This document shows positions 10,131 through 44,212 of a stretch of DNA of 52,157 bases, in pieces. The position numbers and the translations under genes are program-made. The stretch lies in the NCBI GenBank assembly GCA_903887005.1, contig CAISOH010000246.1:1-52157 (forward strand), given 5' to 3'. Each line of letters starts with the position of its first letter. Positions within the stretch are counted from its first letter, which is position 1. The DNA is from an uncultured Bacteroidota bacterium (GTDB taxonomy: Bacteria > Bacteroidota > Bacteroidia > Chitinophagales > Chitinophagaceae). The notes beneath the pieces are model-generated. The model searched no databases. It was not told where the DNA came from and saw only the letters and a program-made list of their open reading frames with translations.

Positions 10131-10160
10131 AAATCCTGACTATAAAAAACAGCGCTAAAA

Positions 10161-10347
10161 ACACACCTCTGTAAAAGTTACCACTGCCACATCAAGGCCG
10201 ACTCCCGTCGTCCCATAATAGCTTTCCCCCGCGAAACAGCGTATAGCTATCTTTTTTTGTGCGGAGCGTTTCAAAAAAAGTGCCTTTTTCTTTTGTTACT
10301 TTTCTTTTGGGCAAGCAAAAGAAAAGTAAGATAATGAGGGCAAAGCT
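10161..10347 (+). repeat. Dispersed two-hairpin repeat A, copy 1
   Basis: The 5' part starts ACACACCTCTGTAAAAG and passes TAGCTTTCCCCC. Two hairpins follow: 10251-10280 (CTTTTTTTG/CAAAAAAAG around a TGCGGAGCGTTT loop) and, 15 nt later, 10296-10329 (a 14-bp stem TTACTTTTCTTTTG around GGCAAG). Other copies are at 39736, 40909, 41110 (partial) and 44071 (inverted). Confidence 0.85.
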
Positions 10348-21885: not shown

Positions 21886-22165
21886 CCGGAAAAGCCCAAT
21901 AGTATTCCTGTCATTGTAAGCCGCGTAGCCGAACTTCCGGCAAATAGTATTCCTGTCATGGGGAGCAATGTAAAGAGGAGCACAGCCGAACTTCCCGCCA
22001 AATAGAATTCCTGTCATGGTGAGCCCCGCCGAACCATGACACGCTCAATCACCGCTACACAGCCTCATCATCGCTCTGTAGTGCGCCGCCAAATAGAATT
22101 CCTGTCATGGTGAGCCCCGCCGAACCATGACACGTTCAATCTCCGTTACACAGCATCATCATCGC
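21886..22165. repeat. Repeat cluster at the 3' end of the GIY-YIG gene
   Basis: Four imperfect units begin near 21886, 21937, 21995 and 22086. Each has CCGSCAAATAGWATTCCTGT followed by CATGGTGAGC-like sequence and GCCGAA. The third and fourth units carry a hairpin, GTCATGGT/ACCATGAC (22013-22040 and 22104-22131). They then continue into TCAATCWCCGYTACACAGC, a copy of the 3' end of the nuclease gene. The rest of the 21696-22145 gap has no gene. Confidence 0.8.
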
Positions 22166-22459: not shown

Positions 22460-22518
22460 GAAATGTAAAAATAATATTGTTCGCAATTCTATTCGGCAGC
22501 AGCACTTAATTTCAGCAT

Positions 22519-22546
22519 GTCATGGTTCGGCGCGGCTCACCATGAC
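22519..22546. repeat. Inverted copy of the GTCATGGT palindrome
   Basis: GTCATGGT and ACCATGAC arms enclose a 12-nt loop that is the reverse complement of the loops at 22013 and 22104 apart from a few changes. It lies just upstream of the GIY-YIG gene in the opposite orientation to the downstream cluster. Confidence 0.75.
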
Positions 22547-22665
22547 AATATATCTATTAAACTCCCCCCTACCCTACTCTTTACACTTTTATTGTTTTAC
22601 AATTTTAGTAAATGTTTTAATAACACCTTTAACATATCGATATAGCATACTATTTTTTTATAGAC

Positions 22666-24066: not shown

Positions 24067-27000
24067 ATGAAAAATTTTACCCGTAATACCTTATTGGTAG
24101 TTTTGTTAACTATCGTTTCTTTTTCTGCCAAAGGTCAGATTACATCAAGTTTTACCGCAGTAACCACAGCAGGTTGCGCGCCGCTTGTAGATAGTTTTAT
24201 CAATACTTCTACAGGCCCTATCACAGGTTATTACTGGGATTTTGGAACGGGGACTACTTCTATCCTCAAAGACCCGTCAACCAGCTTCACTACTCCAGGC
24301 ACCTATGTTGTGAAACTAACTGTATATGGTCCTGGCGGGCCGGTTACTTCCACCATGACCATAACCGTTTATCCTCCACCTACAGTATCTTTTTATGCAA
24401 GCGATACATCTGTATGCCCGGGAACCGCGATAACATTTACCAGCACTACTATTGGCGGAACACCGGGCCCTATAACCTATACCTGGAGTTTTGGAGATGG
24501 CACATTAAGTACGGCCACTACGCCAATCCATGTTTATTCTGTTTCAGGGTATTATAATATCACCTTATTTGCCACCAATTCGATGGGTTGCGTAGAATCT
24601 CTTTCGGTAGCAAGATATATACATGTTACTGTGCCGCCGATTCCCAACTTTACTGTCAGTTCCACCTACATTTGTAAAGTTCCCGGTACTGTGACATTTA
24701 CTGATATGACATCAGGTACCGCCCCCTTTACCTATGCCTGGGATTTTGGCGATGGCGGTACCTCCACACTTCCAAATCCAACCCATACTTACTCCTCAAC
24801 AGGCACCTATACCATTAAACTTACAGTTACAGATGCCAACGGATGCGTCTCCACTATTGTCCGGCCTTCGTACATAACAGTATCCACTATTACCGCCGCC
24901 TTTACGTATCCGCTAAAGGCATGTGTCAATAGTCTTGTTACTTTTACCAATACCAGCAGTTATCATATTTCCAGCAGCTGGGATTATGGCGATGGTTTCA
25001 CAAGCATAGGAGATCCCGGGGTTCATACGTACACAACACCCGGAACATATAAAGTCAGGCTTATCATATCTGACGGCGGCTGCTATGATACGGTCATACA
25101 AACAATTACTATCATCCCCGGGCCAACAGTGAGCTTTACCCAGGTGCCGCTGCAACCATGCCCTCCGCCTGTAGGAATAACATTTACCGCAACCGCACCT
25201 TCCGGAACAACTTTTGTGTGGACCTTCGGAGATGGTGGCTCAGGCGCAGGTTCCCCTGTAACTCATACCTACGGTTCAGCGGGCATTTATACGATTACCA
25301 TGACTGCAACCGACCCTGCAACAGGTTGTGTAAGCACTGCACGACGCATAGACACCCTATATGATATGTATCACTACATTATAGCCACACCCACAAGCGG
25401 CTGCAAGCCACTTACCGTGCGTTTTGAAGATACAGCCATAACCCATGAACCGGATCCTACTTACTTCTGGGGATATCCCTATCCTTACAAAATGAAGTCC
25501 TATACCTGGACTTTTGGAGATGGTTCAACATCCACAGGCGCTTATCCTTCACATACTTATACTGCTATTGGCACTTATGAAGCGTATGTCACAGTTACAA
25601 CCTCCAATGGATGTGTGTTCACTGATTCCATACAAATACTGGTAGGCGCTCCCCCTGTTGTTACTTTCACCGCAACGCCCACTCATGTGTGTTATGGCAA
25701 ACCAATAAAATACGTTGCTACGATCGTAACCGGGCCTGTAGATGATTTTCACTGGATGTTTGACGATTGGTATCTGGGAGGTGAAGGTGATGCACATACC
25801 ACAGTAGATTCAATAATATATACGGATATGGTGCCGGGTATTTTTAAAGTTACACTAATTCCATCTTATCATGGTTGCGCCGGACCTCCTGTCACGCTTA
25901 CCGTCATAGTAGATTCACCAAAGGCGATAGCAAATTATAAGGTTTTGTGTTCGCCCCGGAACAGGGTGCAATTTACCGATCTCTCTATGGGTGATGATTT
26001 CCGGACATGGTTATTTGGAGACGGTACTACTTCAACTGCAACCAACCCGACACATGATTATCCTACAAGCACAACCTATACAGTGACCCTTGCGACTTAT
26101 AATTCAAAAAGCGGGTGCAGGGATACTACCCGGCTTTTTATTGACCTTACCTACCCTACTCCTGATTTTACCGGAACAAGAACTTCCATTTGCAAGGATG
26201 CCGTTGATACCTTCACTGCTACAATGACCGGTGGGGTTGCTTCCTCTTACCAGTGGGATGGGGGCGGAATGTTCCCTACATCATTTGGTATCGGGTCAAC
26301 AACCGGGCGTTTGGGGCCTGTCACAACTGATACCTTTCATACTAGCGGGATATATAGTATCCGGTTAATCGTCACGGATCAAAATGGCTGCCTGGATACT
26401 GTAATCAAGACGAATTATATTAAGGTCGGCGATCCTAAAGTAAACTTCACCGCGTCGCCAACAACGGGCTGCTGGCCGCTTACTGTTACTTTTAAGGATG
26501 CCAGCACAGACATTGCAGGGTTTACTTTCACTAAATATATTTGGGCGTTTGGGGATGGTGGAACATCAACTGTTACATCCACAGCCGTTTCACATACATT
26601 CACTACAGCAGGCACCTTCACCACGCAGGAAATCGTTATTGACAATATAGGATGTATTGACAGCGCAGCTTTATCTTTAGTGACAGTATGGCGGCCGCAC
26701 GCTGATTTTCATGCATACCAGTATCCCTGTGTTGGCGACAGCGTTAATTTTGTCAATTCAAGTACGGGCGCAGTCAGTTCTTTCTGGACGTTTGGCGATG
26801 GTGGCACATCAACAGCCACTTCACCATGGCACACTTACACTACCGCGGGAACTTATACTGTTACCCTTGCCGTAGTTGACGTTCATGGCTGTAAGGATAC
26901 CGCAGTGTTCGTAAATTATATTTTATCAACGCAGGTGATAGCTTCATTTACCATGAGTGATTCATTTGCCATTTGCCCTCCATTAATAGTAAACTTTACC

Positions 27001-28662
27001 AATACCAGTACAGGCGCTTCCAGCTATAGCTGGGATCTTGGGGATGGAACTACTACTGCCGCTGTAAGCCCGAGCGATATGTACATTACTACGGGTTACT
27101 ATACGGTAACTTTGGTAGCCAAAAATATATACGGCTGTATGTCAACTGTCATACAGCATGTAAATGTCTATGGTTATGCCGGTTCATTTACTTACACACC
27201 TCTGAGCGGGTGCTCGCCATTATTGGTCCATTTTAAAGCGAAAATCAGCAATGTGCCGAGCATTATCTGGGATTTTTCTGACGGAACTACTTCTAAAGGT
27301 TCTTTTGTTGACACTGCCGACCATATTTATGTATTGCCCGGCGCTTATGTGCCAAAGCTGATACTCAGTGACAATACCGGTTGCCAGAATTCAAGCCTCG
27401 GAATTGACACTATAAAAGTGGACAAAGTATATCCTGGTTTTAAAACTGTTCCTGCTCCTGTATGTATAAACACTCCGGTAAATTTCACGGATACCTCACG
27501 CAGTTATTTTTCAACCATCACCTCCTGGTTATGGACATTTACCAATGGAGACGTAAGCACAGTCAAATCCCCCCCTTATCTGTACCCCATTCCAGGTACT
27601 TACCCGGTTAACCTAGTCGTAACTGACGGATGGGGTTGCGTGGATTCTGTGAAAGAGGATGTTGTCGTATATCCTCCTCCGGTTATTACGGTAAGCCCTG
27701 ATACTACAATATGCCTGACTGATGCGGCAACATTAACAGGCTACGGAGGCGTAAGCTATACCTGGGTACCCACTTCTACTGTCAGCTGTACGAATTGCAA
27801 CCCAACCAAAGCAAACCCTCTTGTTGTTACTACCTACACGGTTACAGGAACAGATGTGCACGGCTGCGTGAATACAGATACGGTATCCGTATTTATTAAG
27901 ACTAAAACCGTGGGCCATGCCAGCGGGGATACAGAAATATGCCGTAACCAGGTAGTTCAGGTGCATGATTCCGGTGGAACAAAATACTCATGGACGCCGG
28001 CTGCAGGCCTCAGCAGCCCAACAATTGCCGATCCTTATGCCTCTCCGGAATATACAACCAAATATACGGTTATAGCCAAGCTCGCTAGTTGTATTCCGGA
28101 TACCGGTTTCGTATGGGTTACCGTACACCAGTTACCTGCCGTTGACGCTGGCCCGGGCCAGAGGCTGGTAGAAGGTTCTACAGCGCAGTTACAGGCTACA
28201 GGTACCAATGTAGAAATTTACAGCTGGGGAGATCCCGGCACTTTGAGCTGCGACAGTTGCTCAAACCCCTTAGCTACAATGTCGGTATCAACAACATATA
28301 CGGTTAGGGTCACTTCTTCATTTGGCTGCAAAGCTTCTGATTCAGTCAGGATTCTCATATATTGCGACAAGAGCCAGATATTCATACCTAATACTTTTAC
28401 ACCTAATGGCGATGGGAATAATGATATTTTCTATCCACGCGGCATTGGCGTAAGCAACATACTGTCTTTCCGTATCTATAACCGTTGGGGACAATTATTA
28501 TTTGAACGGACTAACATACAAATAAATGATGCATCAAATGCATGGAATGGCTCTTATCTGGGTGGTGCTCCAAGACCGGATGTATATGTATGGGTACTGG
28601 ACGCAATATGTGAAACGGGTGAACCAATAAATATGAAAGGCGACGTAACTATAATCCGGTAA
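24067..28662 (+). CDS. Giant PKD-repeat surface protein with type B T9SS C-terminus, copy 1
   Basis: The 1531-residue protein has a signal peptide (MKNFTRNTLLVVLLTIVSFS, cleavage near AKGQ). About 14 PKD domains follow, each with a W-x-FGDG-x-(S/T)-T core, H-x-Y and T/P-G-x-Y-x-V/I strands. Then come three Ig-like modules (PPPVITVSPDTTICLTDAAT..., residues about 1200-1430). It ends with the gliding-motility-associated C-terminal (CHU_C) domain: FIPNTFTPNGDGNNDIFYP, FRIYNRWGQLLFER, WNGSYLGGAPRPDVYVWVL. That domain is the type B export signal of the type IX system. Such proteins act as SprB-like adhesins or surface filaments. Two tandem paralogues and a PorP/SprF gene follow. One domain (near residue 560) has lost the FGDG motif (HWMFDDWYLGG). 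Confidence 0.93.
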   Translation: MKNFTRNTLLVVLLTIVSFSAKGQITSSFTAVTTAGCAPLVDSFINTSTGPITGYYWDFGTGTTSILKDPSTSFTTPGTYVVKLTVYGPGGPVTSTMTITVYPPPTVSFYASDTSVCPGTAITFTSTTIGGTPGPITYTWSFGDGTLSTATTPIHVYSVSGYYNITLFATNSMGCVESLSVARYIHVTVPPIPNFTVSSTYICKVPGTVTFTDMTSGTAPFTYAWDFGDGGTSTLPNPTHTYSSTGTYTIKLTVTDANGCVSTIVRPSYITVSTITAAFTYPLKACVNSLVTFTNTSSYHISSSWDYGDGFTSIGDPGVHTYTTPGTYKVRLIISDGGCYDTVIQTITIIPGPTVSFTQVPLQPCPPPVGITFTATAPSGTTFVWTFGDGGSGAGSPVTHTYGSAGIYTITMTATDPATGCVSTARRIDTLYDMYHYIIATPTSGCKPLTVRFEDTAITHEPDPTYFWGYPYPYKMKSYTWTFGDGSTSTGAYPSHTYTAIGTYEAYVTVTTSNGCVFTDSIQILVGAPPVVTFTATPTHVCYGKPIKYVATIVTGPVDDFHWMFDDWYLGGEGDAHTTVDSIIYTDMVPGIFKVTLIPSYHGCAGPPVTLTVIVDSPKAIANYKVLCSPRNRVQFTDLSMGDDFRTWLFGDGTTSTATNPTHDYPTSTTYTVTLATYNSKSGCRDTTRLFIDLTYPTPDFTGTRTSICKDAVDTFTATMTGGVASSYQWDGGGMFPTSFGIGSTTGRLGPVTTDTFHTSGIYSIRLIVTDQNGCLDTVIKTNYIKVGDPKVNFTASPTTGCWPLTVTFKDASTDIAGFTFTKYIWAFGDGGTSTVTSTAVSHTFTTAGTFTTQEIVIDNIGCIDSAALSLVTVWRPHADFHAYQYPCVGDSVNFVNSSTGAVSSFWTFGDGGTSTATSPWHTYTTAGTYTVTLAVVDVHGCKDTAVFVNYILSTQVIASFTMSDSFAICPPLIVNFTNTSTGASSYSWDLGDGTTTAAVSPSDMYITTGYYTVTLVAKNIYGCMSTVIQHVNVYGYAGSFTYTPLSGCSPLLVHFKAKISNVPSIIWDFSDGTTSKGSFVDTADHIYVLPGAYVPKLILSDNTGCQNSSLGIDTIKVDKVYPGFKTVPAPVCINTPVNFTDTSRSYFSTITSWLWTFTNGDVSTVKSPPYLYPIPGTYPVNLVVTDGWGCVDSVKEDVVVYPPPVITVSPDTTICLTDAATLTGYGGVSYTWVPTSTVSCTNCNPTKANPLVVTTYTVTGTDVHGCVNTDTVSVFIKTKTVGHASGDTEICRNQVVQVHDSGGTKYSWTPAAGLSSPTIADPYASPEYTTKYTVIAKLASCIPDTGFVWVTVHQLPAVDAGPGQRLVEGSTAQLQATGTNVEIYSWGDPGTLSCDSCSNPLATMSVSTTYTVRVTSSFGCKASDSVRILIYCDKSQIFIPNTFTPNGDGNNDIFYPRGIGVSNILSFRIYNRWGQLLFERTNIQINDASNAWNGSYLGGAPRPDVYVWVLDAICETGEPINMKGDVTIIR

Positions 28663-28843
28663 AGCACCCATGATCGGAAATGTGGAAATGTGGAAATGGC
28701 GAAATTTGTAAAATACAAATTTCAAAAAGATGCAGACAAGTGTAATTGAATTTGAGCAGCAGGTAGGGCTGCGGATGCATTATTTTTTTACATATAAAAA
28801 AATAAACTTTTTTATTTATGTATCTTTTTTAATGAATTATTCA

Positions 28844-28851
28844 TAATTTTA
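28844..28851 (+). promoter_or_regulatory. Probable -7 box of the second PKD gene
   Basis: TAATTTTA lies in AATTATTCATAATTTTAT, about 42 nt before the ATG, and is conserved with the third gene's upstream block. The 28663-28893 gap otherwise holds only short GTGGAAATG repeats near 28677 and AT-rich sequence. Confidence 0.4.
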
Positions 28852-28893
28852 TTTGCCGTTAATCTATTTTCACTATTCCTTACATAATCTCTA

Positions 28894-31800
28894 ATGAAAA
28901 ATTTTTCGCTTTATGCCTTATTGACATTATTATCAGTGCTTGTTTCTTTTTCATCAAAAAGCCAGGTAACATCAAGTTTTACTCCGGCTTATACTTCAGG
29001 GTGCGCCCCGCTGGTAGATAGTTTCAACAATACATCCACAGGCCCAATTACGGGATACTTTTGGGATTTCGGAACGGGGACGACCTCAGTACTCAAAAAC
29101 CCATCTACCAGTTTCACAACACCAGGCACTTACACGGTTAAACTAACTGTTTATGGCACCGGTGGACCAGTTACATCTAGCAAGGCCATTACCGTTTATC
29201 CTCCGCCAACAGTATCTTTTCATGCCAGCGCTACTACCGTATGCCCCGGAACGCCTGTAACTTATACCAGCACTACGGTAGGCGGCACTCCGGGCCCAAT
29301 TAGTTATACCTGGAGTTTTGGCGATGGCACGGTAAGTACTGCTACAACGCCGGTGCATGTATATTCAGTTTCAGGTTATTACAATGTTACCCTGTTTGCC
29401 ATTAATTCGATGGGCTGCGCGGAATCGCTGACGGTAGCAAAATATATTCATGTATTAGCCCCCCCTGTTCCTAACTTTACTGCAAGTTCTGTCTTAGTCT
29501 GCAAAGCTCCGGGGACTGTGACTTTTACCGACATCTCAACCGGCACGCCGCCACTCACATATATTTGGGATTTTGGCGACGGCAGCGGTCCTTCTACACT
29601 TAAAAATCCCACACACACCTATGCTGCATCCGGAACTTATACTGTAAAACTCACAGTAACAGATGGCAACGGATGCACGGCAACAATTGTCAAACCGGCA
29701 TATGTTACCATATCAGGAATAAAAGCAAATTTTGCTTATCCGAAAATTGCCTGTGTCAACAGCCTTATTACCTTCACTAACACCAGCACCACACATTCTT
29801 CCAGCTATTGGGATTATGGAGATGGCGGTTCAGGCACAGGAGACCCGGGAACGCATACCTATACCGGCACGGGTACCTTTAGTGTGAGGCTCATAATTTT
29901 TGATGGCACATGCTATGATACGGTTACAAAACCCATCACCATAATAGCAGGGCCGGTTGTCAGTATCAGCCAGGTACCACTGCAACCCTGTCCGCCACCG
30001 GTAGGAATTACATTTACCGCAACCGCTCCTCCAGGTATAGGTATTACCTGGACTTTCGGCGACGGCGGTACCGGTACGGGGTCGCCCATTACTCATTTAT
30101 ATGCATGGCGGGGAGTGTACACTATAACTATGACCGGCACAGACCCTTCCACGGGCTGCACTACTACCGCCTTGCTTCGGGATACATTATATGACATGGT
30201 GCACAGCATCGTTGCCAGCCCGGTCAAAGGCTGCAGACCGCTTACAGTGAATTTTGCGGATACACCCTATACCTATGAGCCGGATACAACCAAACCCAAA
30301 CATTTTTATCCCTATGGCGTGACGTCTTACTCCTGGACTTTTGGCGATGGCGGGACTTCAACCGCTTCCCGTCCTTTACATATCTATACTGCGGTCGGAA
30401 CTTATAGGGCGTCTGTGACAGTGGTCACTTCCAATGGTTGTGCTTATACGGATACGATACAGATTTTAGTAGGAGACCCGCCCGTGGTTACGCTCACAGC
30501 CTTGCCTACGCATGTCTGCTATGGTCATCCCATTACTTATGTCTCCACGATCGTGAAAGGGCCGGTAGATAACTATGACTGGCAATTTGGTGACGGTAGC
30601 TTTTTTTCAACAACCGGTGGTATAATAACCTACATTGATCTGGTACCTGGTATTTTCACTGTAACATTAACGCCTTCTTATCATGGATGTTATGGGCCGC
30701 CTGTCAATATCACAGTTATTGTGGATTCACCAAAATCCATTCCAAAAGATTCTATTGCATGTTCGCCCCGCAACAGAGTATTTTTTAAAGATCTCTCTTT
30801 GGGCGATGACAGCCATTTGTGGGTATTCGGAGACGGGACTACTTCAACCCTGGCTAACCCTGTTCATGATTATCCGTCCAGTACAACTTATACCGTTTAT
30901 CTTGCCACGTATAATATTGCCAGCGGTTGCAGGGACACAGCCAGTTTTACCGTTGACCTCACTTATCCATCGCCGGATTTTACTGTTTCAAGTCCATTTA
31001 TTTGTAAAGACGCCGTTGATACTTTTACGGCAACCATAACGGGAGGCACTGCAGTTAGTTATTATTGGGATGGGGGAGGCACATTCCCCTTTGTGCCATC
31101 TTATGGACGCTCGTATGGAATTATTGGCCCGATAATCACTGATACTTTCCATATCGCCGGTATTTATAATATCCGTTTGATCGTCACCGACCAGAATGGC
31201 TGTTTTGATACCGTTATTAAGCCTGGGATTGTTAGTGTAGGCGACCCCAAAGTAAACTTCACTGCTACGCCTGCAGCCGGTTGCGCACCACTCAGCGTGA
31301 CATTTATGGACGTAAGTTATGATGTGCCGGGTTTTACATTATCTCAATATTTTTGGTCTTTTGGAGATGGAGGTTCATCTACGGTGACATCCGGAGGTGT
31401 TGTCCATACATTCACCGTTGCAGGCGCCTTTAAAACCCAGGAAATCGTTGTTGACAACTATGGCTGCACAGACAGCGCATCGTTATCTTTGGTCACGGTA
31501 TGGAAGCCACATGCCGATTTTTCATCCTACCAGTATCCCTGTGTTGGCGATGGTGTCAATTTTCTAAATACCAGTACAGGCGCAGTATCTTATTTTTGGA
31601 ATTTTGGCGACGGTAGTACTTCCACTGCGTTTTCGCCATGGCATACCTATACAACTGCCGGCACTTACACGGTATACCTTGCTGTAACAGATGTTCATGG
31701 GTGCAGGGATACTGATGTGTTAGTGAATTATATCACTTCAACAAAGGTTATTGCTTCATTTACCATGAGCGATACATTTGCAGTCTGCCCGCCTTTAACA

Positions 31801-33474
31801 GTCAATTTCACAAATACGAGTATAGGCGCCGGCACATATAACTGGGACCTGGGCAATGGAGCAGTCAGCACCCTTCCGAATCCCAGCAATATGTATATTG
31901 ATTCCGGCTTTTATTATGTGAAATTGATAGCGTCGAATTCTTATGGCTGTTCAGACACAGCTATACAACGCGTAGTAATATACGGTTATGCGGGGGCATT
32001 ATCATACACGCCGCTTACGGGGTGCGTACCATTATTAGTCCATTTTAAAGCAAAAATAACCAACGTATCAAGTATCATCTGGGATTTTTCTGATGGGGTT
32101 ACATCAAGCCCTTCTCTGACAGACACCATAGATCATCTTTACACGGTGGCAGGAGCTTATGTGCCAAAGCTTATTCTCAGTGACAAGACCGGTTGCCAGA
32201 ATTCAAGCCCCGGTTTGGACACTATTAAAGTGGATGAAATGTACGCAGGATTTACAACTGTTCCTTCGCCGGTTTGCATCAATGTTCCTATTTTGTACAA
32301 GGATACTTCGCATAGTTATTTTTCAACCCTGACTTACAATTTCTGGACATTTTCCAATGGTGACACCAGTACGGGCAATATGATCCCCGCTGTATATCCT
32401 GTAGCAGGCGCCTACCCTGTCAGTTTATTTGTGATAGATGGATGGGGGTGTGAGGACTCCCTTAAAACAAGCGTCATGGTATATCCGCCTCCGGTAATTA
32501 CTGTTAGTCCTGATACAATAGTATGCCTGACCGATGCCGCAACACTTACCGGATATGGAGGCGTCAGCTACACATGGGTTCCTGCCGGCACTTTGAGCTG
32601 CGCAAATTGCAATCCAACCCTTGCATCACCCGCAGTAATAACCAGCTATACGGTAACCGGAACTGACATTCATGGCTGCGTCAATACAGATTCAGTGACT
32701 GTATTTCTGAAAACATTAACCGTGAGCCATGCCACCGGGGATACCGATATTTGCCGCAACACGGTTGTGCAATTGCATGATTCCGGGGGAACAACCTATT
32801 TCTGGCAGCCAAGTGGCGGCCTCAGCGATCCGCGTATTGCGAACCCCTTAGCTTACCCCACTGTTACAACTGATTACAGGGTAATTGCAAGACTTGGCAG
32901 TTGTATTCCTGATACCGGTTATGTTTTGGTTACCATTCACGACGTACCATCAGTTGACGCCGGGCCAGACCAGAGAGTTCTGGAAGGTACATTAACGCAA
33001 TTGCATGCCACAGGCACGCAGATTGATAAGATAAGTTGGGGAGAATCTCCAACCCTGAGCTGCGACAGCTGTTTCAGTCCGGTAGCTTCCAATACGGTAA
33101 CCACAACTTATGTTGTAGTTGCTTCAACTTTATTTGGCTGTAAAGACACCGATTCGGTTACTATCCGGATTTACTGCGGCAACGGCCAGATATTTATGCC
33201 AAATACATTTACTCCCAACGGAGATGGAGAAAATGACGTTTATTACCCCCGCGGGAAAGGCATAAGCATTATTAAATCTTTCCGGATTTATAACCGCTGG
33301 GGACAATTATTATTTGAACGTAGCGATATTCGCATGAACGACGCCGGCAACGCCTGGGATGGTTCCTATCTCGGAGGCGAACCAAGACCTGACGTATATG
33401 TCTGGGTGGTAGATGCGGTATGCGAATCTGGTGAACCGATAAATCTGAAAGGCGATGTGACAATTATCCGGTAG
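28894..33474 (+). CDS. Giant PKD-repeat surface protein with type B T9SS C-terminus, copy 2
   Basis: This 1526-residue protein has the same domain order as copy 1: signal peptide MKNFSLYALLTLLSVLVSFS, about 14 PKD domains, three Ig-like modules and a CHU_C domain (FMPNTFTPNGDGENDVYYP, FRIYNRWGQLLFERS, GEPINLKGDVTIIR). Each position along the protein has its equivalent in copies 1 and 3, so the genes arose by whole-gene duplication. The first 90 nt of the gene and the upstream block are nearly identical to copy 3, making these two the closer pair. In PKD 6 the inter-strand loop reads YEPDTTKPKHFYPYGVT, differing in both sequence and length from the other copies. Confidence 0.93.
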   Translation: MKNFSLYALLTLLSVLVSFSSKSQVTSSFTPAYTSGCAPLVDSFNNTSTGPITGYFWDFGTGTTSVLKNPSTSFTTPGTYTVKLTVYGTGGPVTSSKAITVYPPPTVSFHASATTVCPGTPVTYTSTTVGGTPGPISYTWSFGDGTVSTATTPVHVYSVSGYYNVTLFAINSMGCAESLTVAKYIHVLAPPVPNFTASSVLVCKAPGTVTFTDISTGTPPLTYIWDFGDGSGPSTLKNPTHTYAASGTYTVKLTVTDGNGCTATIVKPAYVTISGIKANFAYPKIACVNSLITFTNTSTTHSSSYWDYGDGGSGTGDPGTHTYTGTGTFSVRLIIFDGTCYDTVTKPITIIAGPVVSISQVPLQPCPPPVGITFTATAPPGIGITWTFGDGGTGTGSPITHLYAWRGVYTITMTGTDPSTGCTTTALLRDTLYDMVHSIVASPVKGCRPLTVNFADTPYTYEPDTTKPKHFYPYGVTSYSWTFGDGGTSTASRPLHIYTAVGTYRASVTVVTSNGCAYTDTIQILVGDPPVVTLTALPTHVCYGHPITYVSTIVKGPVDNYDWQFGDGSFFSTTGGIITYIDLVPGIFTVTLTPSYHGCYGPPVNITVIVDSPKSIPKDSIACSPRNRVFFKDLSLGDDSHLWVFGDGTTSTLANPVHDYPSSTTYTVYLATYNIASGCRDTASFTVDLTYPSPDFTVSSPFICKDAVDTFTATITGGTAVSYYWDGGGTFPFVPSYGRSYGIIGPIITDTFHIAGIYNIRLIVTDQNGCFDTVIKPGIVSVGDPKVNFTATPAAGCAPLSVTFMDVSYDVPGFTLSQYFWSFGDGGSSTVTSGGVVHTFTVAGAFKTQEIVVDNYGCTDSASLSLVTVWKPHADFSSYQYPCVGDGVNFLNTSTGAVSYFWNFGDGSTSTAFSPWHTYTTAGTYTVYLAVTDVHGCRDTDVLVNYITSTKVIASFTMSDTFAVCPPLTVNFTNTSIGAGTYNWDLGNGAVSTLPNPSNMYIDSGFYYVKLIASNSYGCSDTAIQRVVIYGYAGALSYTPLTGCVPLLVHFKAKITNVSSIIWDFSDGVTSSPSLTDTIDHLYTVAGAYVPKLILSDKTGCQNSSPGLDTIKVDEMYAGFTTVPSPVCINVPILYKDTSHSYFSTLTYNFWTFSNGDTSTGNMIPAVYPVAGAYPVSLFVIDGWGCEDSLKTSVMVYPPPVITVSPDTIVCLTDAATLTGYGGVSYTWVPAGTLSCANCNPTLASPAVITSYTVTGTDIHGCVNTDSVTVFLKTLTVSHATGDTDICRNTVVQLHDSGGTTYFWQPSGGLSDPRIANPLAYPTVTTDYRVIARLGSCIPDTGYVLVTIHDVPSVDAGPDQRVLEGTLTQLHATGTQIDKISWGESPTLSCDSCFSPVASNTVTTTYVVVASTLFGCKDTDSVTIRIYCGNGQIFMPNTFTPNGDGENDVYYPRGKGISIIKSFRIYNRWGQLLFERSDIRMNDAGNAWDGSYLGGEPRPDVYVWVVDAVCESGEPINLKGDVTIIR

Positions 33475-33607
33475 AATGTATGGAATGAAATATTTGCCAG
33501 ATTGCAAGGAATAATATGGTTGAATTAATAATGGCTTAATTAATGGATTATTTTTTATATGAAAAGCAAATTTTCGGGTTCATGCGTATTATTTAATAAG
33601 TTATTCA

Positions 33608-33615
33608 TAATTTTA
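33608..33615 (+). promoter_or_regulatory. Probable -7 box of the third PKD gene
   Basis: TAATTTTA stands in GTTATTCATAATTTTAAT, the same context and distance (about 42 nt) as before the second gene. It suggests separate but equal expression of the copies. Confidence 0.4.
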
Positions 33616-33657
33616 ATTACCGTTAATAGATTTTCACCATCCCTCAAATAATCTCTA

Positions 33658-36600
33658 ATGAAAAACTTTTCGCTTTATGCATTATTGACATTATTATCAG
33701 GGTTGGTTTCTTTTTCATCAAAAAGCCAGGTAACATCTGGTTTTACTCCGGTTTATACTTCAGGGTGCTCACCACTTGTAGATAGTTTCAGCAATACATC
33801 CACTGGCCCGGTTACGGGATACTTCTGGGATTTCGGAACGGGGATAACTTCAGTGGTCAAAAACCCATCTGCAAGCTTTACTTCTCCCGGCACGTATATA
33901 GTTAAACTGACCGTTTTTGGTCCCGGAGGGCCGGTTACTTCTACCCAAACCGTTACTGTATATCCACCACCTGCAGTATCTTTTTACGCAAGCGTTACTA
34001 CTGTTTGTCCCGGTGACCCGGTAACTTTTACCAGCACTACCGTGGGGGGCGCACCGGGACCGGTTACCTATACATGGAGTTTTGGCGATGGAACTTTAAG
34101 TACTGCTACTTCACCCGTGCATATTTATTCAACATCTGGTTATTACAATGTCACTTTGTATGCTACAAGTTCGGCAGGCTGCACTAAATTCCTGACTGTA
34201 GCAAAGTATATTCATGTAACAGTCCCCCCTGTCCCCAATTTCACGGTAAATTCAAACTATGTATGTATTACTCCCGGCACAGTAACTTTCACTGATTCGT
34301 CAGTTGGCGTCCCGCCGCTTACCTATTCCTGGGATTTTGGCGATGGCAGTGGCCCTTCCACTTTAAAAAATCCTCCGCATACCTATACCGCGGCCGGAAC
34401 CTATACCATAAAACTCACCGTAACAGACGGCAACGGCTGCACGGCTACAATTACCAAACCGGCATTTGTAACCATAGCTAATACTTTCGCAAGTTTTACG
34501 TATCCGACGCCGGTTTGCACCAACTCTATTGTTACTTTTCTAAACACCAGCAGCACGCATACCTACAGCCATTGGAGCTATGGAGATGGCGATACCTCAT
34601 CAGGAGATCCCGGGATACATCAATATGCCTCGCCTGGAATTTACGTGGTCAAGCTCCTTGTCTTCGACGGAACATGTCTTGATTCTACTACAAAAACAAT
34701 TACCGTAATTCCCGGGCCTGCAGTCAGTTTTACTCAGGTGCCGATTGAACCCTGTCCTCCACCTGTCGGAATAAAATTCATTGCTACTACCCCTCCGGGC
34801 AGCACCCTAAGATGGACCTTCGGGATTGGCGGCCCGGGAACAGGATCTCCTGTCACACATACATTTCCCTTCCCCGGCGTATATACTATTACCCTATACG
34901 CAACCGACCCGACCACCGGCTGTGTGAGTAATGCCGTGCGTACAGATACTTTGTATGACATGATCCATGGAATCACTGCTTCGCCTGTCATGGGCTGCGC
35001 TCCGCTTACAGTAAATTTTTATGATACACCATATACATATCAACCCGCTCCTCCTCCTCCGCTTCCACCCATATTGCATTTATATCCATTTAGTATGGCT
35101 TCTTATTCCTGGACTTTCGGAGATGGCGGGACTTCAACCCTTTCCCGACCTTCGCACACTTATACAGCAGCAGGAGTTTACCTGTCATCGGTGACAGTAG
35201 TCAGTTCCAATGGATGCGTTTATACAGATACTTTAACAATATTTGTGGGAGGGCCGCCTGTTGTTACGTTCACTGCTGCCCCCACTCATGTTTGCTATGG
35301 CCAGCCTGTTACCTATGTGGCAACCCTCATTAAAGGGCCTATTGATGCTTATTCCTGGCGATTTGGCGATGGGGGGGGAGGGTCTGGAAGTACCATTACC
35401 TATACGGACACTTTACCTGGTATTTTCACCGTAACATTAACGCCATACTATCGCGGTTGTCCCGGTCCACCTGTTACGTTTAGCGGTATTATCGTAGATT
35501 CACCAAGATCGATAATTAGATACACTGTTATTTGTTCTCCCAGGAAACGGGTACAATTTTGGGATAAATCTTTGGGAGATGACAGCCATTTGTGGATTTT
35601 CGGCGACGGGACCACCTCCACACTATCCAACCCGCTGCATGATTATCCATTGCCTGTAACTTATACAGTTCAACTGGCAACCTATAATAAAACCAGCGGT
35701 TGCCGGGATACTGATAAAGTTTATATAGATCTTAGCACCCCAACACCGGATTTTACTGTTTCAAGTCCGTTTATTTGTAAGGATGCAGTGGATACATTTA
35801 CTGCAACAATGACAGGCGGTATCGCTTATGGTTACTATTGGGATAGCGGAGGTGGTACGTTTGCCTGTTATGCTTTTCCTCCTTCTCCACCGCCATATGG
35901 AGGTCCTCACGGACGTTGCGGGCCGGTGATAACCGATACGTTCCATGTACCCGGCATATATACTATCCGGTTAATTGTTTCGGATCAAAACCGTTGTACA
36001 GATACTGTCGTAAAGCCTAATATCATTAACGTCGGCCATCCCAAAGTAAAGTTCTCTGCTTCACCCCCTATTGGTTGCTGGCCGCTAACCGTTACCTTTA
36101 TTGATTCCAGTTCTGATATGACCGGATTTAAACTATCTAAATACTTATGGTCATTTGGAGACGGGAGTTCAACTACCGTGACGACCACCAGTGTTGCCCA
36201 TACATTTACGATTGCCGGTACTTTCAAAACGCAGGAAATCGTTATTGACAATTACGGATGCACTGACAGCCTGACATTGCCTTTAGTGACTGTATGGCGG
36301 CCTCATGCCGCATTCTCAGCCAACCAGTATCCCTGCCTGGGAGATACTGTTCATTTTGTCAATTCCAGTACGGATACAACCGGCACATTCTGGACTTTTG
36401 GCGATGGCGCCACATCAACGGCTACCGCTCCCTCGCATATCTACACCACTACCGGATCATTTACTGTGACGCTGGCTGTGAGGGATATTCATGGTTGTGT
36501 GGATACCGCCGTATATGTAAATTATATTTTATCTACCAATGTTGTTGCTTCCTTTACTATGAGCGATTCTTTTTCTATTTGTCCACCTTTAATAGTTAAC

Positions 36601-38268
36601 TTTACAAATACCGGAACCGGAGGCACTAACCATAATTGGGATCTTGGCGATGGCAATGTAAGCGCGCTCCCTAACCCGGTCAATATGTATATGGATACAG
36701 GTTACTTTACAGTGATATTAATTGATTCCAATAAATATGGATGTAAAGACACTTCTGTACACCATGTGTATGTGTTAGGTTATGCCGGTGCATTAAGTTA
36801 TGCACCGCTTTCAGGATGCGTCCCTTTAACCGTCCATTTTAAGGCAACTGTCAGTAATGTGCCGAGTATTATCTGGGACTTTTCGGACGGAATTATTTCG
36901 AAAGCTATTCTGACAGACAGTATTGATCATATTTATCTGACGCCCGGCGCTTACGTACCAAAACTGATATTAAGCGATAATACAGGCTGTAGTAACTTCA
37001 GCATCGGTAAAGATACCATTAAGGTGGATAACGTTTTTCCGGGATTTACTTCCATTCCGAATCCTATCTGTATTAATGTTCCTGTTTATTATAAAGATAC
37101 TTCTCACAGTTTGTTCTCAACTGTTAACTCCTGGCTATGGAAATTTACCAATGGTGACACCAGCACAAGCAGCTCACTTCCTTATTTATACGCTGTTGCA
37201 GGGACGTACCCGGTTAGCCTGAAGGTAACTGACCAATGGGGTTGTGTGGATTCTGTTACGGGAGATGTGGTTGTATATCCGCAACCTGTCATTACAGCAA
37301 GTCCTGATACGATTGTATGCCTGACCGACGCCGCAACACTTACAGGTTACGGAGGCGTCAGCTATTCCTGGGCCCCGACATCTACTGTCAGTTGTATAAA
37401 TTGCAATCCTGCTCTTGCGTCTCCTAGAGTTGTTACAACCTATACTGTTACAGGAACTGACATTCATGGCTGCGTCAATACGAATACCGTGACAGTATTC
37501 CTTAAAACTAAAACAGTGAGCTATGCCAGCAGTGATACCGGTATTTGCGCTAATTCAGCAGTGCAGTTACTTGATTCCGGCGGTACAACTTATCTCTGGT
37601 CGCCAAGTGGCGGCGTTAGCAATGTGCATATTGCCGATCCACTGGTGAGCCCCGCATCCACTACACAATATATGGTAATCGCCAAACTTGGCAGTTGTAT
37701 TGCGGATACCGCTTTTGTGCTGGTTACCGTACACCCCTTACCTACGGTTGAAGTTGGCCCCGACCAGACAGTGGTAGAAGGTAATTTAACACATTTAATA
37801 GCCAATGGTACATGGATAGAAAAGTACAGTTGGGGAAAATCTCCTGCGCTCAGTTGCGATACCTGCCCTAATCCGGTGGCTACCAATTCTGTAACTGCTA
37901 CTTATATAGTAGTTGTTACTTCGGCATTCGGCTGTAACGCTTCCGATTCTGTTACCGTACGTGTTCACTGCGATAAGAGCCAGATATTCATGCCGAATTC
38001 CTTTACTCCAAACGGCGACGGGCAAAATGATACATACTATCCGCGGGGAAAAGGCGTTATGATAGTTAAATCTTTCCGGATTTATAACCGGTGGGGACAA
38101 CTATTATTTGAACGGAGTAATTTCCAGGTGAACGATGCTGCCAATGCCTGGGATGGGTCCTACATGGGTGGAGATCCAAGGCCTGATGTATTCGTATGGG
38201 TAGTGGATGCTGTATGTGAAACAGGCGAACCGATAAATTTGAAAGGTGATGTAACTATAATCCGATAA
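33658..38268 (+). CDS. Giant PKD-repeat surface protein with type B T9SS C-terminus, copy 3
   Basis: The 1536-residue protein repeats the architecture of copies 1 and 2 and ends in a CHU_C domain (FMPNSFTPNGDGQNDTYYP, FRIYNRWGQLLFERS). Two loops differ from the other copies by becoming proline-rich: YQPAPPPPLPPILHLYPF in PKD 6 and CYAFPPSPPPYGGPHGRC, with two additional cysteines, in PKD 9. In PKD 5 the usual FGDGG is FGIGG. The PorP/SprF gene starts 13 bp after its stop codon, so the two are co-transcribed, which fits a cargo and its dedicated outer-membrane partner. Confidence 0.93.
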   Translation: MKNFSLYALLTLLSGLVSFSSKSQVTSGFTPVYTSGCSPLVDSFSNTSTGPVTGYFWDFGTGITSVVKNPSASFTSPGTYIVKLTVFGPGGPVTSTQTVTVYPPPAVSFYASVTTVCPGDPVTFTSTTVGGAPGPVTYTWSFGDGTLSTATSPVHIYSTSGYYNVTLYATSSAGCTKFLTVAKYIHVTVPPVPNFTVNSNYVCITPGTVTFTDSSVGVPPLTYSWDFGDGSGPSTLKNPPHTYTAAGTYTIKLTVTDGNGCTATITKPAFVTIANTFASFTYPTPVCTNSIVTFLNTSSTHTYSHWSYGDGDTSSGDPGIHQYASPGIYVVKLLVFDGTCLDSTTKTITVIPGPAVSFTQVPIEPCPPPVGIKFIATTPPGSTLRWTFGIGGPGTGSPVTHTFPFPGVYTITLYATDPTTGCVSNAVRTDTLYDMIHGITASPVMGCAPLTVNFYDTPYTYQPAPPPPLPPILHLYPFSMASYSWTFGDGGTSTLSRPSHTYTAAGVYLSSVTVVSSNGCVYTDTLTIFVGGPPVVTFTAAPTHVCYGQPVTYVATLIKGPIDAYSWRFGDGGGGSGSTITYTDTLPGIFTVTLTPYYRGCPGPPVTFSGIIVDSPRSIIRYTVICSPRKRVQFWDKSLGDDSHLWIFGDGTTSTLSNPLHDYPLPVTYTVQLATYNKTSGCRDTDKVYIDLSTPTPDFTVSSPFICKDAVDTFTATMTGGIAYGYYWDSGGGTFACYAFPPSPPPYGGPHGRCGPVITDTFHVPGIYTIRLIVSDQNRCTDTVVKPNIINVGHPKVKFSASPPIGCWPLTVTFIDSSSDMTGFKLSKYLWSFGDGSSTTVTTTSVAHTFTIAGTFKTQEIVIDNYGCTDSLTLPLVTVWRPHAAFSANQYPCLGDTVHFVNSSTDTTGTFWTFGDGATSTATAPSHIYTTTGSFTVTLAVRDIHGCVDTAVYVNYILSTNVVASFTMSDSFSICPPLIVNFTNTGTGGTNHNWDLGDGNVSALPNPVNMYMDTGYFTVILIDSNKYGCKDTSVHHVYVLGYAGALSYAPLSGCVPLTVHFKATVSNVPSIIWDFSDGIISKAILTDSIDHIYLTPGAYVPKLILSDNTGCSNFSIGKDTIKVDNVFPGFTSIPNPICINVPVYYKDTSHSLFSTVNSWLWKFTNGDTSTSSSLPYLYAVAGTYPVSLKVTDQWGCVDSVTGDVVVYPQPVITASPDTIVCLTDAATLTGYGGVSYSWAPTSTVSCINCNPALASPRVVTTYTVTGTDIHGCVNTNTVTVFLKTKTVSYASSDTGICANSAVQLLDSGGTTYLWSPSGGVSNVHIADPLVSPASTTQYMVIAKLGSCIADTAFVLVTVHPLPTVEVGPDQTVVEGNLTHLIANGTWIEKYSWGKSPALSCDTCPNPVATNSVTATYIVVVTSAFGCNASDSVTVRVHCDKSQIFMPNSFTPNGDGQNDTYYPRGKGVMIVKSFRIYNRWGQLLFERSNFQVNDAANAWDGSYMGGDPRPDVFVWVVDAVCETGEPINLKGDVTIIR

Positions 38269-39382: not shown

Positions 39383-39550
39383 TCCTGAGTTTATCGAAGG
39401 GTGTCATCCTGAGTTTATCGAAGGGTGGCACTCCTGAGTTTATCGAAGGGTGTCATCCTGAGTTTATCGAAGGGTGGCACTCCTGAGTTTACCGAAGGGT
39501 GTCATCCTGAGTTTATCGAAGGGTGGCACTCCTGAGTTTACCGAAGGGGG
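39383..39550. repeat. Tandem array of seven 24/25-bp units
   Basis: Seven units of TCCTGAGTTTAYCGAAGGG start at 39383, 39407, 39432, 39456, 39481, 39505 and 39530. The spacing alternates 24 and 25 bp because linkers alternate between TGTCA and TGGCAC, so the real period is 49 bp. Single relatives occur near 39950 and 40138. There is no open frame in common. Confidence 0.9.
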
Positions 39551-39735: not shown

Positions 39736-39893
39736 AAAGCCCCGCCAACAAGGGTAACTTTTAATAGCTTTCCCCCACATTTCAGCGTATAGCTATCTTT
39801 TTTTGTGCGGAGCGTTTCAAAAAAAGGGCCCTTTTCTTTTGTTACTTTTCTTTTGGGCAAGCAAAAGAAAAGTAAGATAATAAGGGCAAAGCT
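39736..39893 (+). repeat. Dispersed two-hairpin repeat A, copy 2
   Basis: It starts AAGCCCCGCCAACAAGGG and shares TAGCTTTCCCCCACAT. Hairpins lie at 39797-39826 and 39842-39875, identical in stems to copy 1. Its 5' end matches the inverted copy at 44071 rather than copy 1. Confidence 0.85.
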
Positions 39894-40908: not shown

Positions 40909-41077
40909 ACACACCCCTGTAAAAGTTACCGCTGCCACATCAAAGCCGACTCCCGTCGTCCCCTAACAGCCTTCCCCCACATAACACCGTATAGCTTTCT
41001 TTTGCCATGCGGATGCATTCAGGCAAAAGTGCCCTTTTCTTTGGTTCGTTTCTTTTGGCCACCCAAAAGAAATGAAC
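40909..41077 (+). repeat. Dispersed two-hairpin repeat A, copy 3 (divergent stems)
   Basis: Hairpin 1 is at 40999-41029 with the stem CTTTTGCC/GGCAAAAG and hairpin 2 is at 41044-41077 with GTTCGTTTCTTTTGG/CCAAAAGAAATGAAC. Stem sequences differ from copies 1 and 2, yet pairing, order and spacing (14 nt) are kept. Confidence 0.85.
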
Positions 41078-41109
41078 ACTCGCGCAGGACAGATAATTAA
41101 GGACAAAAA

Positions 41110-41188
41110 ACACACCTCTGTAAAAATTATCACTGCCACATCAATGCCGACTCCCGTCGTCCCTCAATAGCTTTCCCCCACATTTCCA
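41110..41188 (+). repeat. Dispersed repeat A, partial copy 4
   Basis: Only the 5' part is present (ACACACCTCTG to TAGCTTTCCCCCACATT). It is cut exactly where a repeat B copy begins, so the junction at 41188/41189 looks like an insertion or recombination point. Confidence 0.75.
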
Positions 41189-44070: not shown

Positions 44071-44212
44071 TATCTTACTTTTTCTTTGCTTCGCCAAAGA
44101 AAAAGTAACAAAAAGAAAGGCGATTTTTGGCGAAACGCTCCGCACGCCCAAAAAAAGCTCTGCGCTGAAATTTGGGGGAAAGCTATTAAGGGGAAGCCCT
44201 TGTTGGCGGGGC
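44071..44212 (-). repeat. Dispersed two-hairpin repeat A, copy 5 (inverted)
   Basis: Read on the minus strand it starts GCCCCGCCAACAAGGG and shares TAGCTTTCCCCC. Hairpin 1 (44124-44154) has the stem TTTTTGGGCG/CGCCAAAAA and keeps the TGCGGAGCGTTT loop. Hairpin 2 (44075-44108) has TTACTTTTTCTTTG/CAAAGAAAAAGTAA. The flanking 43953-44070 and 44213-44425 hold no gene I can support. Confidence 0.85.

Follow-up and report, generated by a model that had tools for sequence, protein, structure and literature searches.

A dispersed bacterial repeat with a covarying H-type pseudoknot and a proposed pyrimidine-motif triple helix

The window, the 52,157-nt stretch of DNA that was analysed, holds four copies of a dispersed repeat built around two successive hairpins, hairpin 1 and hairpin 2 (S2). 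Its core is best explained as an H-type pseudoknot with a long parallel pyrimidine-motif triple helix, a fold made from one single strand that would work as the end of the element during copying. We give this reading a probability of roughly 60%. The argument draws on the statistics of a pseudoknot helix (P), the mirror register of a proposed third strand (L1), strand polarity, dispersal, absence from the matching sites of relatives, outward-facing doublets, mainly in Proteobacteria, and, within one genus, same-strand linkage to a multi-copy family of HTH genes. A dispersed element whose working part is a folded single strand appears the most likely account of what the repeat does. The fold would form once the defined strand becomes single-stranded, as RNA or ssDNA. 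Helix P would form, and L1 would occupy the major groove of S2 as a third strand, giving layers of roughly three to six U.A-U, one C+.G-C, three to five U.A-U, and then a G facing a G. By analogy with REPINs, we infer that such a fold is the recognised or protected end of the element during copying rather than a service to neighbouring host genes.

The preliminary description had reported two hairpins 14-15 nt apart in each of four copies, with stems that vary around a loop that stays nearly constant, and all four copies are present in that form. The hairpin pairs lie at 10251-10329 (copy 1), 39797-39875 (copy 2) and 40999-41077 (copy 3) on the forward strand and at 44075-44153 (copy 4) on the reverse strand, separated by 15, 15, 14 and 15 nt, respectively, by coordinates. 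The loop of hairpin 1 reads TGCGGAGCGTTT, or ATGCGGATGCATTCA in the third copy, and holds a GC(GGA)GC mini-hairpin. The relation of the spacer to the second hairpin had been overlooked. A 5' part of the spacer (P5) pairs with a segment in the S2 loop (P3), so hairpin 2, on comparative evidence, is part of an H-type pseudoknot. Moreover, the T-rich part of the spacer mirrors the 5' arm of hairpin 2. The order within one copy is hairpin 1, P5, L1 (a pyrimidine tract ending in G), the S2 5' arm, P3 in the S2 loop, and the purine S2 3' arm.

In copy 1, hairpin 1 occupies 10251-10280 (CTTTTTTTG / CAAAAAAAG, with the inner mini-hairpin) and is supported by covariation, as is the helix between P5 (TGCC, 10281-10284) and P3 (GGCA, 10310-10313). 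L1 (TTTTTCTTTTG, 10285-10295), the proposed Hoogsteen third strand, stands in mirror register with the purine arm of the S2 hairpin (10296-10329), which carries P3 in its loop. A 5' module of the family A type (...CCGACTCCCGTCGTCCC...TAGCTTTCCCCC...CAGCGTATAGCTAT), common to other copies, precedes it at 10144-10250. Copy 2 comprises hairpin 1 at 39797-39826 and a proposed triplex pseudoknot at 39827-39875, with P5 (GCCC) at 39828-39831, L1 at 39832-39841, S2 at 39842-39875 and P3 (GGGC) at 39855-39858. Copy 3 pairs hairpin 1 at 40999-41029 (CTTTTGCC / GGCAAAAG) with a proposed triplex pseudoknot at 41030-41077 (L1 TTTTCTTTG, S2 GTTCGTTTCTTTTGG / CCAAAAGAAATGAAC), in which P is imperfect, TGCCC standing against GGCCAC. 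A truncated second 5' module without hairpins lies directly 3' of it, at 41106-41179 on the same strand. On the reverse strand, copy 4 has hairpin 1 at 44124-44153 (TTTTTGGGCG / CGCCAAAAA) and its proposed triplex pseudoknot at 44075-44123 (P5 TCGCC, L1 TTTCTTTTTG, S2 TTACTTTTTCTTTG / CAAAGAAAAAGTAA, P3 GGCGA), where the T3CT5 of L1 fits the purine tract A3GA5.

Statistical analysis bears out the compensating stem changes noted between copies. From 45 segments of the source and related species, 35 entered a first alignment and 21 a second, which underlies the covariance model. Among the 21 aligned copies, both hairpins covary: the score reaches 0.302 against 0.106 after shuffling (0 of 500 shuffles as high) and at most 0.084 in slid controls, and 96.8% of stem cells are paired against 85.2%. 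Further pair types, one of the measures taken, show no excess over the shuffles (22 against 21.1). Both sides have changed in 5 of 5 pairs of P, 7 of 9 of hairpin 1 and 3 of 13 of S2.

Helix P has been rewritten many times among relatives. A cross-phylum pattern, in which the L1 and S2 core is fixed and P5 and all but one base of P3 are free, yielded 66 gapless distinct sequences of one length. Double-change cells in P number 65 against 21.9 after shuffling in this set, and the covariation score is 0.467 against 0.179 (0 of 500), with slid controls at or below 0.117. Counting the P pairs that show double changes gives no excess over shuffles (5 against 4.0; 66 of 500), and there is no support for a sixth pair, present in 21 of the 66 sequences. 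Among matches with at least 7 nt upstream, P extends to at least 4 bp in 59 of 83 distinct combinations, against a shuffled mean of 16.2 and a maximum of 27 in 1000. These comparisons make it almost certain that the pseudoknot is an evolutionary constraint. The suggestion that selection acts on an RNA or single-stranded DNA structure is supported, now on much stronger grounds.

L1 takes the form T(m1)CT(n1)G and the purine arm the form A(m)GA(n). A parallel Hoogsteen third strand predicts that n1 equals n and that m1 follows m, whereas a direct duplication of the S2 5' arm predicts the reverse. Parses were kept if P reached at least 4 bp, a lenient filter that is independent of the n1/n relation and retained 224 of 254. 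The scanning pattern had itself fixed L1 and S2 in 134 of these 224, which were left out. In the remainder, n1 equals n in 85 of 90 sequences and in 25 of 30 distinct cores, against a shuffled mean of 11.0 and a maximum of 19 in 2000. These counts are partly dependent and partly selected, since the cores share descent and the model that detected many of them had been trained on L1-bearing copies. When the pattern specified S2 only, two scans yielded few usable cores with a C in L1, and they revealed lineages in which L1 lacks the C (T5G or similar).

Asymmetric cores discriminate most directly between the two predictions, with a mirror in 16 of 20 and a direct repeat in 0 of 20. Examples are T6CT3 with A6GA3, T3CT5 with A3GA5 (window copy 4), T4CT6 with A4GA6 and T5CT4 with A5GA4. 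The mirror favours a parallel third strand (U.A-U, C+.G-C), since such a strand needs a mirror repeat and no common duplication makes one. Plain hairpin repeats, in which the likeness of L1 to S2 would reflect nothing more than their shared T-richness, could draw on symmetric cores such as A4GA4, which cannot separate a mirror from a direct repeat, and on the folding of single copies, which is only modestly better than that of shuffles; against the asymmetric cores and the covariation of P, this explanation is already disfavoured and scarcely credible. A three-stranded fold is quite probable on these comparisons, and we infer that the molecule really adopts the triple helix.

Folding energies add little to this picture. 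The z scores of copies 1 to 4 are -1.96, -2.23, -5.13 and -1.15, and those of the opposite strands are -3.01, -3.14, -3.82 and -1.75. As the values are modest and opposite strands score alike, the structural claim is carried by covariation and not by stability. The folding strand is indicated by the wobble pairs. In the outer S2 arm, G.T outnumbers A.C by 40 to 3 (7 poorly paired rows of 104 skipped), and in P by 17 to 0, with 12 of the 17 G.T at the position where the pattern fixed a G. An excess of this kind points to one defined strand, as written, that folds alone as RNA or ssDNA, given that a cruciform of duplex DNA would show no such preference. The d(GCGNAGC) rule describes ultra-stable DNA mini-hairpins, and both GCGGAGC in the hairpin 1 loop and GCGAAGC, a common S2 loop, fit it. 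These loops offer a hint towards ssDNA.

The covariance model, run against the whole genome of origin (5.96 Mb, 453 contigs), finds 43 copies at E <= 3.2e-5; another 11, weaker matches reflect these places on the opposite strand. Queried with copy 1, blastn gives 42 matches in this genome. The copy 2 query matches 29 of 60 genomes, and all but one of these belong to the same genus, of which 28 of 35 genomes match (own genome counted). At class level, the model reaches 29 of 295 genomes and 19 of 156 genera at E <= 0.001, own included, and a recognisable S2 is present in 24 of 28 inspected loci. The range is wider than Bacteroidota, with the core motif recurring across several phyla, Proteobacteria and Bacillota among them. 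At least 119 stretches of named genomes match the cross-phylum pattern, 80 of them listed with titles. Among the matches listed, proteobacterial carriers include Variovorax, Polaromonas, Thiobacillus, Methylomonas, Dyella, Avibacterium and others. Bacteroidota, Selenomonadales, Gemmiger, Ignavibacteria, Phycisphaerales and Moraniibacteriota are likewise represented among the matches listed. Helix P is clear in most carrier groups and weak in the Gemmiger match. Viral contigs give 8 matches, and three element queries reach 2, 1 and 2 of 72,556 plasmid records. One plasmid record, NC_014633.1 (Ilyobacter polytropus, a fusobacterial replicon), shows 12 short matches to the query made from a Thiobacillus doublet.

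The repeat has a modular scaffold. Of 19 distinct own-genome copies of the copy 1 5' module that were examined, 9 lead into the triplex pseudoknot, 5 into a Y-R-R motif and 5 into other sequence. The Y-R-R motif, of the BoxC type with a purine-type triplex order, reads ACCTCTCC-TTC-GGAGAGG-CCG-GGAGAGG or a variant (loci L008, L013, L025, L346 and L348), and it keeps the flanking modules and the 3' tail of the pseudoknot copies it replaces. Copies are thus mosaics, and further chimaeras occur among the own-genome families, in which conserved tails follow S2 on its 3' side. Hairpin 2 is longer by 21-26 nt in 15 of the 43 copies, judged by match lengths. Those inspected (L015, L017, L018, L020, L003 and L009) carry a different hairpin, GGCGCCTGTCCCG...CGGGAGCC or the like, in place of the upper half of S2. 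As such copies have still been amplified, spread does not depend on a full triplex.

The preliminary description had proposed an undescribed mobile or regulatory element. Mobility gains from the dispersal and from the site of copy 4, upstream of an M13 peptidase gene, for which relatives provide 19 matching loci; the element is missing from all 18 with enough upstream sequence to judge. Close pairs of copies (<= 1.5 kb) in named, mainly proteobacterial loci face outward in 22 of 26 cases among the matches listed, 20 of them 260-583 bp apart, and the 15 outward doublets with listed titles are all from Proteobacteria. The halves of ten aligned doublets are inverted repeats over 83-315 bp with 75-90% identity. 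Outward doublets are absent from the own genome and the stretches of its genus, where the three close pairs are all head to tail (++). In genome G106, similarity between copies stops 6-50 nt after S2. As to the hallmarks of a MITE, no target duplication was recognised by eye in the flanks of one genome's copies, whose ends are provisional. No transposase was recognisable by eye in the spacers of six close pairs (528-1393 bp), and no linked transposase emerged. An origin from RAYT or IS200 elements was rejected for the source genome, whose 10 Y1_Tnp (RAYT) loci carry no linked copy and only two matches of 22-30 nt. At one of these loci (L034), REP-like hairpins (ACCATGGGTTGCACCCATGGT and TTCAACCCCGTTGGGGTTGGG) adjoin the Y1 transposase gene and are probably that gene's own REPs. 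On this evidence, the element is a dispersed, mostly non-coding repeat with no transposase of its own, and the chance that it is a mobile element using the fold may be put at slightly under even.

That copies have no protein frame in common is true of the core but only partly so within the genus, where some copies adjoin an HTH gene and one species duplicates both together. The 913 ORFs within 2.5 kb of copies were clustered, and representatives of 14 multi-locus clusters were scanned. Most are ordinary (secretion-tail proteins, histidine kinase, ABC transporter, ferredoxin, helicase, hydroxylase), four have no family, one belongs to an HTH family, and none of the 14 has a transposase domain. 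The HTH family occurs in 34 of 35 genomes of the genus, with up to 14 matches each; examples are L402 9176-9625 and L409 9394-9843, both on the reverse strand. With seven short or broken matches set aside, 143 listed genes were compared with the positions of copies: 13, spread over six genomes, have within 1.5 kb one of the 165 copies among the matches listed, where about 0.74 would be expected by chance from genome sizes. All 13 are on the strand of the copy, which lies upstream in 9 (44-744 nt away) and downstream in 4. Six of the 13 belong to genome G009, in which the unit of copy and HTH gene recurs at five further places with 85-92% identity over 1.0-1.5 kb, and four of the five alignments end within 20 nt of the HTH gene stop codon. 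All 22 aligned members match phrog_4151 ("DNA binding protein"), and there is similarity to small terminase subunits too. The predicted fold is all-helical (mean pLDDT 82), and the best PDB matches are DeoR DNA-binding domains, none reaching E 0.001. The family has apparent similarity to DNA-binding proteins only, none to nucleases, and it is absent from the 704 ORFs near copies outside the genus. Within its own genus only, the HTH protein is a candidate partner of the element; its role may be that of a passenger, a regulator or a mobilisation partner.

Whether the working strand is RNA or DNA bears on several other explanations. The triplex pseudoknot could guard the 3' end of a transcript from nucleases, in the manner of MALAT1 or the telomerase RNA precursor, or serve as a leader or scaffold RNA, for instance of the own-genus HTH genes. 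The strand-specific G.T excess and the 9 HTH genes with a same-strand copy upstream would fit, RNA 3' ends with protective triple helices have been described (PMC6303318, as excerpted), and pyrimidine-type intrastrand triplexes occur in RNA too, according to the available text of Holder et al. (PMC4666352). However, the same scaffold carries Y-R-R modules, whose purine type is described there as unable to form in RNA, conserved tails follow S2, and polarity to neighbouring genes is slight, which leaves an RNA element unlikely. Upstream genes are on the same strand in 78 cases and opposite in 54, and downstream genes in 91 and 84 (four groups pooled). The same figures weigh on a role in transcription termination or 3' processing, with copies scattered behind genes. 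Such a role would suit the resemblance of hairpin 1 and the T-rich tract after it to a terminator, as well as the slight upstream same-strand excess; in named loci, copies are found least often in divergent intergenic regions (4 of 49). Such regions are common enough in the class set (12 of 40), however, and same- against opposite-strand counts in the own genome are 7 to 6 upstream and 8 to 6 downstream. A terminator or cis-regulatory role was rejected on this slight polarity, and the terminator is accordingly very improbable. Copies lie mostly between ORFs with little orientation preference (ORFs called by length, hence approximate), and of the 38 named copies inside long ORFs, many concern ORFs that are probably spurious.

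An intrastrand triplex repeat that acts at the DNA level on replication or genome stability, and is spread by recombination and gene conversion, is about as unlikely as an RNA element. The hairpin 1 apex would suit it as an ultra-stable DNA mini-hairpin, and a replication-strand bias exists in the own genus: 36 of 46 copies and 31 of 40 window-strand units lie on the strand of negative GC skew, as do 10 of 15 units in the own genome and, in 20-kb stretches of the genus (L367-L426), 49 of 64 copies or 41 of 55 merged units. The bias fades among named loci of 8 kb (61 of 107) and among loci of 3 kb (62 of 100); other genera show none (12 of 22), and GC skew is uncorrelated with gene direction. 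The swap of a Y-R-R motif into the same scaffold (5 of 19) and the mosaic copies also agree with it, and the order of tracts (Hoogsteen Y, Y, R) fits class IV of Holder et al. In contrast, the covarying pseudoknot helix lies outside the class IV definition in the available text (PMC4666352), and recombination alone poorly explains an isolated copy at a site that is empty in relatives. Tentatively, and with the odds somewhat against it, the repeats could form a bacteria-wide class defined by an H-type pseudoknot, a MALAT1-like triplex of 9-11 layers and selection on all three strands, as the end of a large unrecognised REPIN-like mobile family that interchanges with a purine-type triplex module. 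Triplex formation itself would then be selected and recognised by a nuclease, a transposase or a binding protein, perhaps the linked HTH protein in one genus.

Several known systems share parts of this architecture. In the telomerase RNA pseudoknot and the SAM-II riboswitch, a third strand lies in the major groove of the second stem. Compared with both, the triplex proposed here would be longer (about 9-11 layers if all form) and belongs to a dispersed bacterial repeat. MALAT1 and PAN have a run of U.A-U broken by one C+.G-C, a composition that the proposed layers resemble, although theirs is built of a U-rich internal loop and an A-rich tract at or near the RNA 3' end and is not an H-type pseudoknot. 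Telomerase RNA holds its triple helix in a pseudoknot, as proposed for the element, and, together with MALAT1, it may be regarded as nearest in fold (PMC6303318, as excerpted).

Holder et al. (2015) described intrastrand triplex motifs (ITxF classes I-IV; TMECO/BoxC) across 5246 genomes and plasmids, so the kind of repeat was already described, and the claim of an undescribed element does not hold to that extent (PMC4666352, available sections). Their class IV and the present element are both repeated and have three consecutive tracts in the order Hoogsteen pyrimidine, pyrimidine, purine, in parallel register. Those sections centre on the G/C-rich purine-type BoxC motif, give search loops of 1-6 nt and contain no covariation analysis, whereas the element covaries and its P3 loop between the S2 arms, mostly 8 nt, falls outside that limit (PMC4666352). 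As the word "pseudoknot" is absent from their text and the loop limit excludes the 8-nt loop, helix P sets the element apart (PMC4666352). The element's A/T-rich core departs from the BoxC/TMECO pattern CCCTCNCCC-N3-6-GGGNGAGGG-N3-GGGNGAGGG, a shorter Y-R-R relative of which sits in 5 of 19 scaffolds. Like REPs and REPINs, the element is extragenic and occurs in many copies, and in named, mainly proteobacterial loci its outward-facing pairs resemble the inverted doublets of REPINs, which form long hairpins; unlike REPINs, as described in the available part of PMC3116915, it has a core of 45-50 nt, an A/T-rich stem, a pseudoknot and a third strand, and its doublets span about 500 bp and are missing from its own genus. 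The S2 bases inspected are mostly GTTC, GATAC or GTTAC, with some CTAC/GTAG; REPs carry a GTAG or CGTC tag. In the own genome, the RAYT link of REPINs has no convincing counterpart.

Rfam 15 at gathering score reports four tRNAs only in the window, and none of its families fits the element. At E <= 1, 15 further loci give 28 sub-threshold matches to microRNA models, 26 of them at one unrelated hairpin in L224 and one elsewhere in L265; the one on the element (L268 368-446, E 0.89) scores 24.4 bits against a cut-off of 91. Integron attC was rejected on sequence, against the features of attC sites. A repeat-sequence search of open-licence papers returned none on bacterial repeats by title. Within the open-licence literature, intrastrand triplex repeats are known and the covarying pseudoknot version appears to be new. 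Natural triple helices can seldom be argued from covariation across three strands. Here such covariation is abundant and spans phyla, which opens to testing the formation of long triplexes in bacterial RNA or ssDNA and the reason for their presence in repeats. One architecture also unites many T/A-rich intergenic repeats of Bacteroidota and Proteobacteria, and a concrete sequence class with a candidate DNA-binding partner in one genus provides a starting point for seeking what moves or protects such repeats.

The window has further features of its own, among them type IX secretion proteins, which indicate an origin in Bacteroidota. Tandem TCCTGAGTTTATCGAAGGG repeats at 39383-39548 are spaced alternately by 24 and 25 nt. 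An inverted pair of repeats of the TGTCATGGTGAGCCCCGCCGAACCATGACA type, another palindromic repeat, occupies 22001-22139 and 22511-22558. The region 24067-38268 holds a tandem array of three paralogues (about 1530 aa each), which carry repeated WTFGDG-like motifs, with a PorP/SprF gene behind them.
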